Shown in pieces: positions 12,797 through 14,050 of a DNA stretch of 14,050 bases; position 1 is the stretch's first letter, and every line of letters starts with the position of its first letter. The position numbers and the translations under genes are program-made. Source of the stretch: an uncultured Spirochaetaceae bacterium (GTDB lineage: Bacteria; Spirochaetota; Spirochaetia; Treponematales; Treponemataceae); contig CADBRC010000136.1 of assembly GCA_902796985.1 (NCBI GenBank), positions 1 through 14,050 on the forward strand, read 5' to 3'. Under the pieces are notes generated by a model. The model searched no databases, was not told the DNA's origin, and saw nothing but the letters and a program-made list of their open reading frames with translations.

Positions 12797-12830
12797 GGAT
12801 AGCCCTCCCTAAAAAACATACCTGAGGGAA

Positions 12831-12856
12831 CCTCGAAAAACTTCAGTTTTTCGAGG
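12831..12856. repeat. Perfect 12-bp hairpin in the znuC leader (H1)
   Basis: CCTCGAAAAACT (12831-12842) and AGTTTTTCGAGG (12845-12856) are exact inverted repeats with a 2-base gap. One more A-T pair and, across a small bulge, a GGG/CCC pairing (12826-12828 with 12860-12862) extend it. It lies 35 bases before the znuC start codon. It shares its arm sequence with the hairpin at 12913-12955, so the two are probably copies of one palindromic element. Confidence 0.85.
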
Positions 12857-12874
12857 TAACCCTGAAAACGCGAT

Positions 12875-12907
12875 GTCGTAAGTCGCGATATTGTAGCGAC
12901 TTACGAC
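12875..12907. repeat. Perfect 12-bp hairpin in the znuC leader (H2)
   Basis: GTCGTAAGTCGC (12875-12886) pairs exactly with GCGACTTACGAC (12896-12907) around a 9-base loop. Its sequence differs from the two flanking hairpins. No T-run follows on either strand, so it is not an intrinsic terminator. Confidence 0.85.
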
Positions 12908-12912
12908 TCGAC

Positions 12913-12955
12913 GGCATTCTCTAAAAACTGGGCTTGCCTAGTTTTTAGAGATGCC
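12913..12955. repeat. Long hairpin in the znuC leader (H3)
   Basis: TCTCTAAAAACT (12918-12929) and AGTTTTTAGAGA (12940-12951) are exact inverted repeats. GGCA (12913-12916) with TGCC (12952-12955) extends the stem past one bulged T, and the interior GGC-TT-GCC closes the top, giving about 20 pairs in all. The arms match H1 at 10 of 12 positions, and both differences are compensated on the other arm. It lies just downstream of the expected transcription start of the znuCB operon. Confidence 0.85.
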
Positions 12956-12966
12956 CTTGACTGATA

Positions 12967-13017: not shown

Positions 13018-13543
13018 GTCAACAGCAGCTTCTACAGCATGCCCACGGCGGACCGGCTGCGTTCGTTCTACGAGCGGAGCGAAGAGCGGGTCCAGTTCAG
13101 CATAAAGGCCAACCGCCTGCTCACCCATGAAATCACGCCCCGGTGGGCCGATGCCGTCACGGAGTTCAAGAGCGCCGTCGCCCCACTCGCCCAAAGGGGA
13201 AAGCTCTGCGCGGTCCTGTTCCAGTTTCCCCAGGGCTTCCGCTACACGGACGAAAACAGGATCTACCTCGCACGGCTCATCGGGGCCTTTGCAGGCTACC
13301 CAGTCCTGATAGAATTCCGCCATGCCGAGTGGATACGCCCGTCCGTGTTCCAAGGGCTTACGGAGCGCGGGGCAGGGCTTGTCTACTGCGACTTGCCCAA
13401 ACTGGCACAGCTGCCCGACGGCAAGGCCCTGCAAAGCCCGGACCGAAGGCAAGCAGGTACAGGTCTACTTCAACAACCACCCCGACGGCAGCGGTGCCAA
13501 GAACGCAAAGCGGCTGAAGGAGATGATGGGACTCGCACTGTAA
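13018..13543 (+). pseudogene. Decayed DUF72 (YecE-like) gene
   Basis: Remnant of a DUF72 family protein. Similarity begins abruptly at VNSSFYSMP (from 13018), which is an internal motif of the family, so roughly the first 30-50 codons are gone and no start codon in place of them is convincing. Frame 1 continues through FSIKANRLLTHE, CAVLFQFPQGFRYT and VLIEFRHAEW to about 13431 (LPDGKAL). The family C-terminus EGKQVQVYFNNHPDGSGAKNA resumes in frame 2 at about 13445 and ends at TAA 13541-13543. The segment normally between these two, about 50-60 residues around the YVRFHGR motif, is missing, so an internal deletion of some 150-180 bp caused the frameshift. The function of intact DUF72 proteins is unknown. 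Confidence 0.85.
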
Positions 13544-13560
13544 AAAGCCGCAAAACACGC

Positions 13561-13610
13561 AAGCAAGAGAGTCTACCCGCACAAGCAAGAGAGTCTACCG
13601 ACACAAGCAA
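13561..13610. repeat. Tandem repeat, 22-bp period, about 2.3 copies
   Basis: AAGCAAGAGAGTCTACC occurs exactly at 13561-13577 and 13583-13599, and its first six bases recur at 13605-13610. The 5-base gap between copies differs slightly. The period equals that of the array that follows at 13617, although the sequences are unrelated. GCAAGCAA at 13559-13566 has an inverted partner, TTGCTTGC, at 13730-13737 beyond the array. Confidence 0.85.
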
Positions 13611-13616
13611 ATAGGA

Positions 13617-13723
13617 TGTAATAGTACTGTTTACAACATGTAATAGGACTAGTTACAAGTTGTAAACAATCTATTTACAAAGTGCAACTAGTCCTATTAC
13701 AATATGAATGTAGCCCTATTACA
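13617..13723. repeat. Array of alternating inverted 8-bp half-sites phased at 11 bp
   Basis: Five 19-bp units start at 13617, 13639, 13661, 13683 and 13705, exactly 22 bp apart. Each unit is an 8-mer, a 3-base spacer and an inverted 8-mer; units are separated by 3 bases. Written in one orientation the half-sites are TGTAATAG, TGTAAACA; TGTAATAG, TGTAACTA; TGTAAACA, TGTAAATA; TGCAACTA, TGTAATAG; and TGAATGTA (degenerate), TGTAATAG. So a half-site recurs every 11 bp with alternating strand. The linkers are not conserved, the half-sites are. This points to a protein-binding lattice rather than a coding or terminator structure. Function unknown. Confidence 0.85.
13639..13701. repeat. 28-bp imperfect inverted repeat inside the half-site array
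   Basis: 13639-13666 and 13674-13701 are inverted copies matching at 25 of 28 positions, with a 7-base centre CAATCTA. The outer 16 bases of each arm match perfectly, including the phrase GGACTAGTT. The repeat spans units 2 to 4 of the array and could extrude as a cruciform or fold as RNA. Confidence 0.85.
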
Positions 13724-14003
13724 GATGTTTTGCTTGCTGGCCAAAGCCTTCTTGCTGCGGCTGCCAGTTCCTCTTGCACGCAATCAGCCTTTACAATCCA
13801 ACGCCAAAGGGTTACAATTAAGGACGAAATTCAGGCGAGGGCCGAAGCCGTGATGCACGATAGGTGCGCGGTCGGGGCGCGCCGTCCACCCAGCCCTGCA
13901 CAGCGGGCCTGAGCTGCGCCCTACGGAAAGGCCGTTTTTGCGGGCCGACTACGGAAGGGAGATGATATGGACATGGCAACACCCTGGATTGAGCCGATTT
14001 TCT
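13724..14003. other. Stretch without a convincing gene; possible gene remnants
   Basis: No tRNA, terminator or complete gene is recognised. A frame open across 13682-13912 starts inside the repeat array and ends VTIKDEIQARAEAVMHDR...PAQRA; I recognise no family in it. A small hairpin, GGCC with GGCC around GTTTTTGCG, lies at about 13930-13946 and is flanked by CTACGGAAAGG and CTACGGAAGGG. After the ribosome-binding-like GGAAGGGAG (13953-13961), an ATG at 13962 opens 25 codons beginning MIWTWQHPG, faintly like the start of Fic-family DUF4172 domains, before a stop at 14037-14039. These are weak signals. Confidence 0.3.
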
Positions 14004-14050
14004 GTAAAAATGTGTAAAATCACGCAGGAAAAGCAGTAAAAATGTGTAAA
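14004..14050. repeat. Direct repeat, 15 bp at 32-bp spacing, at the window edge
   Basis: GTAAAAATGTGTAAA occurs exactly at 14004-14018 and 14036-14050, start to start 32 bases, with 17 unrelated bases between. The second copy touches the window end, so whether more copies follow is unknown. It may be the start of an array, or of a mobile-element end. Confidence 0.7.

Follow-up and report, generated by a model that had tools for sequence, protein, structure and literature searches.

The window analysed here is a 14,050-nucleotide stretch of DNA from an uncultured Spirochaetaceae bacterium, and near its right-hand end, at positions 13617 to 13723, we read five 19-bp dyads repeated with an exact period of 22 bp. 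From left to right, and without strand assignment, they are TGTAATAG tac TGTTTACA (13617..13635; PWM unit score 15.1), TGTAATAG gac TAGTTACA (13639..13657; 20.9), TGTAAACA atc TATTTACA (13661..13679; 20.5), TGCAACTA gtc CTATTACA (13683..13701; 18.2) and TGAATGTA gcc CTATTACA (13705..13723; 12.6), and they are joined by the linkers aca, agt, aag and ata, respectively. The array thus comprises ten 8-bp half-sites that alternate in strand, with exactly 3 bp between neighbours; nine are clear, and TGAATGTA, the left half of the fifth dyad, is decayed. A motif-free score for a lattice of ten alternating 11-bp cells reaches its maximum of 97.3 bits at 13612-13721, with the runner-up place in the 14 kb window at 52.1 and a maximum of 66.1 over 100 simulated second-order Markov windows. 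The per-column score is 7.55 for a cell size of 11 and 3.35–4.89 for the remaining sizes within 8–15. A preliminary description of this DNA had claimed alternating 8-bp half-sites with 3-bp gaps and 11/22-bp phasing, and both the direct reading and the motif-free score bear this out.

The whole array is enclosed by an imperfect inverted repeat (I1; arms 13604-13666 and 13674-13736, 73% complementary), whose outer parts flank the dyads as a left arm, CAAGCAAATAGGA (13604..13616, + strand), and a right arm, GATGTTTTGCTTG (13724..13736, - strand). By eye, edges resembling these outer arms occur in two other loci, on the left at L052 and L057 and on the right at L057. Left of the array and in its register lie two more 22-bp direct repeats on the + strand (CAAGCAAGAGAGTCTACCsrCA; D1, 13560..13603, 91% identity, spacing 22). 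Further left, at 13039..13543 on the + strand, is a DUF72 gene remnant in two frames; PF01904 matches two distinct ORFs there, scoring under the curated cut-off in the second. Its last stop is separated from the array by 73 bases; we treat it as a neighbour only. To the right, 327 bp remain before the contig ends, and the extreme end (14004-14050) contains two copies of GTAAAAATGTGTAAA 32 bp apart. We also observed by eye, at 12826-12956, upstream of apparent ABC transporter genes, three near-perfect inverted repeats in series (CTCGAAAAACttcAGTTTTTCGAG; GTCGTAAGTCGC..GCGACTTACGAC; CTCTAAAAACT..AGTTTTTAGAG).

The window's own draft assembly is 75.66% complete; when it was searched with a two-dyad pattern that tolerated up to 3 mismatches, the window array was the sole match, and the reversed pattern had none. 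The exact pattern, searched in one genome per species across 84,980 species, returned 25 stretches, of which 21 carry Treponema or Spirochaetaceae in the title. No match was found with the exact pattern in viral contigs, with a protein search of viral contigs limited to two peptide words, or with a DNA search of plasmid and phage collections. Of the four matches outside Treponema, L069 and L087 consist of two dyads only, and L074 and L079, from an Elusimicrobia and a Bacteroidales MAG, are near-perfect 22-bp tandems; among ORFs of at least 90 aa in the piece read, no HU gene was recognised by eye beside these last two (L079 is partly N).

An alignment in MAFFT of 25 arrays, cut in register, had no gaps, and the 63-column profile of these arrays matched 11 of the 200 Treponema genomes searched. 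Of 42 loci then scored with a half-site matrix, 39 were kept; L123, L142 and L143 were dropped for weak scores, and genomes G238 and G255 left the set of 11. The 39 arrays, of 3–8 units each, are distributed over nine genomes: one in the window's own assembly (G000), five each in G250, G081 (T. porcinum), G054 and G099, eight in G198, six in G258, three in G069 and one in G110. Their consensus is TGWAAnnAGnCTnnTTWCA followed by 3 free bases. The best 22-bp register scores 43.9–137 and the second-best no more than 19.1 in every array, although this test uses the single best register and therefore could not by itself reveal an array broken by an indel. The absence of other copies with this spacing had been put forward as grounds for rejecting the proposal; since 39 arrays with 11/22-bp spacing exist in 9 of 200 Treponema genomes, that objection falls away. 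The same description held that half-site words combine freely between units, and a comparison of 87 non-redundant units found this to be correct.

Several of these arrays share flanking DNA. In T. porcinum about 240 bp with sharp edges are common to four of the five arrays; in the fifth, the shared sequence covers the left part plus the array. Arrays of other species have flanks in common among themselves. A TTTCATCTTGATGAAA-like repeat, also of 22 bp (L060 9148-9215; L015; L020), accompanies T. porcinum arrays in their register and occurs alone in G091 and G040. Genes of PDDEXK_2 type adjoin six arrays (L115, L125, L135, L137, L138 and L140) in G054, G198 and G258, one assigned by a Pfam check and the others by similarity.

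The pattern of change in the arrays is that expected of a duplex protein site. Among the 87 non-redundant units (of 99, from 25 arrays), the variable arm positions 6–8 show no clear co-variation (p 0.05, 0.29 and 0.49). Position 3 does co-vary (p 0.003), which we take as a species effect because neighbouring dyads co-vary there as well (p 0.01). In three species an array is retained in the interval that separates a dCMP-deaminase gene from the adjacent gene, and at this locus the columns identical in all three are 28 of 30 for TGWAA, 8 of 9 for the centre, 14 of 18 for the inner positions and 0 of 6 for the linkers. Length and half-sites are kept and linker letters are free, and the array therefore resembles protein sites on one helix face. 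The best reading of these relatives, from their sequences, is that they are candidate protein-binding lattices. Were the array instead to act as RNA, in the form of tandem hairpins, a terminator or a sponge, paired changes in the arms would be expected to leave a trace; in those gene-linked arrays whose dyad is clear, changes on one side only (124 breaks and 75 G-U) exceed compensatory ones, of which there are 16 among double changes beside 13 that do not pair. The T. porcinum units TGTAAACA GTC TGTTTACA could fold, and a promoter-like TTGTTT..TATAAT is visible by eye left of the T. porcinum arrays, yet the window has no match in Rfam. The missing arm co-variation and the one-sided changes disfavour an RNA hairpin array, which we regard as very improbable.

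Clustering of the genes around the arrays identified one recurrent DNA-binding gene, which encodes an HU-like protein. At seven loci in six of the nine genomes this gene ends between the array itself, with overlap, and 205 bp before it, the array being invariably 3' of the gene; one of the seven genes is a fragment and one is shortened. In T. porcinum an HU-HIG gene is located at L078:5176-5883. The genes beside the arrays at L054 and L058 score above the cut-off for PF14848, PF18291 and PF14734, and thus have the HU-HIG/DUF4469 architecture of an HU-type domain (PF14848/PF18291) followed by an Ig-like DUF4469 domain (PF14734). Both of these intact proteins match only HU-HIG/DUF4469 models in Pfam, with no nuclease domain. 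The N-terminal part matches the solved HU chains 5eka and 5lvt (E 0.0017 and 0.0088); the VIA table covers the C-terminal domain only, so that the absence of HU chains from it is uninformative.

A profile built from five HU-HIG proteins detects relatives in 74 of the 200 Treponema genomes; DUF4469 is present in 96 of the 200 and absent from 14 named control genomes. Single genomes may hold several members: five DUF4469 genes share a single 2.66-Mb contig of G049, and G078 and G091 have twenty DUF4469 matches apiece. The nearest HU-HIG relatives outside the nine genomes, in G063 and G032, belong to the same fork of the tree (support 91) and have 22-bp 3' arrays with a different yet similar word. 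The window's own assembly, G069 and G099 all have arrays, and in none of the three was a close relative of the cognate HU gene detected.

To what extent the family and the arrays go together was examined in 89 HU-HIG genes with a readable 3' flank, among the matches listed of the profile search. A 22–24-bp tandem array lies within 500 bp 3' of 46 of these 89 genes, compared with 4 of 271 control ORFs, and of 40 of 83 when six genes found via their arrays are excluded; five of the 46 (L240, L266, L267, L271 and L272) are weak, and chance or coding sequence may account for them. The other 43 genes have no 3' array within 500 bp. With periods of 19–26 searched, the 46 arrays have periods of 22 (22 arrays), 23 (22) and 24 (two), they start a median of 33 bp past the stop codon, and in 31 of them dyad symmetry exceeds that of shuffled columns at p<0.05. 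Arrays 5' of the gene are found in 15 of 84 cases, ten with a period of 22 and five being simple repeats.

A scan of periods 14–40 in 40 HU loci (333 kb) and 400 kb of control DNA gave period 22 as the commonest, with 32 matches (28 without N runs) against 3 in the control, one of the three (L214) being itself a dispersed TTCCTAAG array. Period 23 had 17 matches (13 without N runs) against 1, and the further periods were 16 (14 against 1), 24 (19 against 14) and 36 (15 against 13). In a set chosen by domain, 35 DUF4469 loci of which 10 repeat genes of the 89-gene set, an array of period 12–40 lies on either side in 18, while the 240 flanks of 120 control ORFs yielded 6 array calls. In the window's own genome, four of five DUF4469 genes have an array, on the 5' side and with other words; these four (L310, L311, L313 and L314, on contigs C73, C425, C65 and C408) have 22–24-bp arrays with the words AGAATGGACATTCT, AAACGTCCGTTTAG, TAAGTTCnnACTTnTACGAACTTA and GGTGTCGTACTGCACC, respectively.

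The coupling extends across genera. Among 16 loci outside genus g1 from a search of the phylum, with periods 12–40 searched, 13 have an array of period 23 at 1–102 bp 3' of the gene and three have none; about nine words can be distinguished by eye among the 13, a GCATA-like core being frequent. On the T. saccharophilum plasmid pTS2, an array of period 23 begins at +0 after the HU gene, which lies at L315:5920-6627; its z is 6.5, slightly under the cut of 7. In a tree of 116 HU-HIG genes, no array was detected on either side of 49 within 500 bp, and 14 have one on the 5' side only. Side and period cluster on this protein tree, which needs 26 changes, compared with a mean of 58.8 after shuffling, and none of 200 shufflings gave so few; the 5' period-22 label alone is unclustered (10 changes, shuffled 10.7). 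We note two further arrangements upstream of HU genes. In the subclade of L184-L192, L209 and L210, the gene row is an HTH-like gene, a short gene and HU, with a 22-bp AAAATcTTTTTGGgCG-type array 0.9–1.9 kb 5' of HU. Upstream of the HU genes at L157, L158, L162, L166 and L168, there is a common TTGACA..TATAAT promoter and then a short terminator-ended segment that by eye resembles a small RNA.

Array words frequently differ from gene to gene, close relatives included; L268 and L269 are one such pair of relatives, with 27 differences. At HU flanks the word is TTCCTAAG agc CTTAGGAA in G021 and G221, AAAGTYnnnnRACTTT in G086 and G090, CTACC ggcataat GGTAG in G049, and GTGTAGG ctg CCTACAC in G196 and G208. 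Close HU-HIG relatives with different words show their greatest divergence in a single C-terminal-domain stretch, which an AlphaFold2 (AF2) model would place between the last two strands; mean pLDDT is 69, and low in the HU part, and we therefore make no claim about a dimer from it. In two of three sets, identity in this variable stretch tracks word similarity beyond that of the rest of the protein (rho 0.87, n=8, where near-identical pairs help the correlation; rho 0.33, n=22; 0 of 200 permutations each). In the third, clade 1 of the period-23 genes (n=19), there is no such relation between variable loop and word (rho 0.01), and the window that tracks best falls within the HU part (5 of 200 permutations).

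The words also differ in how far they have spread. In G221 eight TTCCTAAG array loci are distributed around a 2.73-Mb contig, one of them at the HU gene, and two copies have 860 bp in common at 96%. Besides the TTCCTAAG array at its HU gene, the G221 relative G021 has at least one other (C4:54874-55018, 85%). When a G221 array is compared with G021, homology resumes just past the array edge and the other side lies elsewhere, with no clean empty site. A dispersed element of about 335 bp (L283 1720-2054), with many copies in G021 and G085, lies beside one G221 array. Dispersal is not general, because the CTACC arrays of G049 and G436 stay beside HU genes: the word occurs as an array solely there, with a single 2-mismatch match elsewhere in G436.

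Among 59 loci with a 3' array, 39 have a co-directional next gene and 14 a convergent one, with the next gene far off at one locus and five loci cut; these orientations might be about those expected from gene order alone. With arrays of period 23 or 24, a simple rule classes 12 of 25 co-directional next genes as lipoprotein-like, compared with 24 of 314 control ORFs, some of the 25 being near relatives and the controls being drawn from five genomes; for period-22 modules the count is 0 of 14.

We propose that a sequence-specific protein would dock as a dimer on each 19-bp dyad, with one dimer per 22 bp, or two helical turns; at that spacing neighbours would share a helix face and be able to bind cooperatively. 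This agrees with the preliminary description insofar as a cooperative DNA-binding site is the best reading of constrained half-sites, free linkers, arms without co-variation and DNA-binding gene neighbours; the process that such a site serves we infer. The array is probably the landing strip of an HU-like protein of this kind, since such arrays often directly adjoin genes of one HU-like family and the word often changes with the gene, and the HU-HIG/DUF4469 family is the most likely source of the window lattice's cognate protein. Such a protein, with its N-terminal HU-type domain and C-terminal Ig-like (TIG-type) domain, would bind its own lattice, and many spirochaete HU-HIG genes are coupled to a lattice with a word of their own, often just 3' and less often 5'. 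Lattices linked to a gene seem to form the core of the system; in some species lattice copies are also scattered over the genome, the window array being one scattered copy.

What the bound protein might do can be put forward in outline. It would nucleate on the lattice and there build a nucleoprotein block, local in extent, by which adjoining promoters are silenced or gated, and paralogues would change their word and so avoid cross-binding. The 3' position of the array does not suit simple autoregulation; we favour a local, address-specific block on promoters because the gene next to arrays of period 23 or 24 is often lipoprotein-like. To this explanation as a whole, a cooperative HU-HIG lattice acting on nearby promoters, we assign a probability of about 0.6. 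That HU-HIG proteins bind their own lattices, and do so specifically, is a prediction from sequence in which we have considerable confidence; for local control of transcription by the bound protein, a prediction of the same kind, we would put the odds at slightly worse than even. A broader and speculative extension, on balance unlikely to hold in full, is that spirochaetes possess a self-addressing chromatin, in which the many paralogues of the HU-like protein would act as orthogonal locus-specific silencers or switches, with specificity set by a loop of the TIG-like domain and with a phased lattice beside each gene as its own target; the 23-bp class would address adjacent surface lipoprotein genes, with antigenic variation as the outcome, and new pairs would arise by duplication with joint change of loop and word. 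If true, there would be HU-type proteins with sequence specificity, an address label beside the gene, dozens of protein–lattice pairs and, in these, a natural code for DNA recognition by HU and TIG domains. They would also provide a candidate regulator of treponeme surface lipoproteins and a ready supply of DNA-binding pairs.

Other explanations have been considered. The array might be a centromere-like segregation site, at which HU-HIG pairs or tethers DNA and whose modules lie on present or former mobile replicons. As with sopB and sopC, the array is directly beside the gene of its presumed binder; one module does sit on a plasmid, pTS2, and differing words are compatible with incompatibility groups. 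A precedent is StbA, which binds 9-bp repeats spaced by 2, an 11-bp period, and works without its ATPase, according to PMC3098194. Segregation nonetheless sits poorly with many modules on one replicon, as on the G049 contig with its five DUF4469 genes or in G078 and G091 with twenty matches each, and with TTCCTAAG arrays at eight places around the G221 contig; no ParA-like gene was recognised by eye when the neighbours of 40 loci were clustered and the 14 most widespread clusters inspected, and we consider this explanation improbable. We give equally little credence to REP- or REPIN-like repeats, selfish or passenger palindromic DNA spread by a recombinase with HU-HIG as host factor or passenger. 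The preliminary description had offered a self-amplifying repeat family as its alternative, and this finds some support in the five T. porcinum copies, four sharing about 240 bp with sharp edges and the fifth a part of it, and in the eight array loci of G221, two with 860 bp in common at 96%. The outer inverted repeat in the window, the PDDEXK_2-type genes near six arrays (one Pfam-checked) and the ownership of words by genes, as RAYTs own REPs, point the same way. The absence of a nuclease domain from the two HU-HIG proteins scanned, the confinement of the CTACC arrays in G049 and G436 to HU genes, and the conservation of half-sites at a shared locus do not.

Alternatively, the arrays could be operators of another regulator, with HU-HIG genes merely close by. 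The consensus is an ordinary-looking dyad, binding by HU-HIG is predicted from sequence, and three genomes (G000, G069 and G099) have arrays and no detected close cognate gene. A bystander gene is nonetheless hard to reconcile with a coupling that spans genera, a word that often changes by gene, and a side and period that follow the HU-HIG tree, and we hold this to be more doubtful still than segregation or REP-like spread. The cooperative HU-HIG lattice thus remains the explanation that we prefer.

Among known systems, StbA lacks an HU fold, and we know of no word diversification among resident StbA paralogues. Its pairing with stbDR on plasmid R388 is nevertheless like that described here in that the gene adjoins an array of short sites with an 11-bp period and a single protein acts with its ATPase dispensable for stability (PMC3098194). 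In the same text, the system is plasmid-borne and stbDR consists of direct 9-bp repeats spaced by 2 around the operon promoter, whereas here the half-sites alternate in inverted orientation and gene-linked arrays are more often 3' than 5'. The two intact array-side proteins match HU-HIG/DUF4469 models only, and neither is an StbA-type binder or a ParB-type one (HTH or RHH). In SopB-sopC of plasmid F, sopC lies just 3' of sopB, the gene of its binding protein, and is made of tandem 43-bp units with an inverted repeat in each; SopB is a ParB-type binder with the ATPase SopA as partner. Here the unit is 22–23 bp and the neighbour is HU-HIG. As to HU/IHF nucleoid proteins and BVU_2165 (PDB 4fmr), we know of no HU protein with a private, multi-site, sequence-specific array beside its gene.

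REPtrons (TnpA_REP/RAYT with REP/BIME/REPIN) likewise have palindromic repeats of their own near the gene and dispersed copies, and depend on an HUH nuclease acting on single-stranded DNA hairpins, as PMC8266576 describes. The arrays reported here are phased and duplex-like in their constraints, one word tested shows no dispersal, and neither an HUH-type TnpA_REP gene (no nuclease domain in the two scanned proteins) nor hairpin repeats with arm co-variation were found. For insertion sequences and MITEs, which have terminal inverted repeats with target-site duplication, the relevant observations are the outer inverted repeat in the window, the sharp shared edges in T. porcinum and the lack of a clean empty site between G221 and G021. 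A description of the HU-HIG gene-array pairing was not found in the open-access full-text literature, and we rate the HU-HIG gene and its lattice as new as a gene-lattice system, less so if the lattice is a plain operator array.
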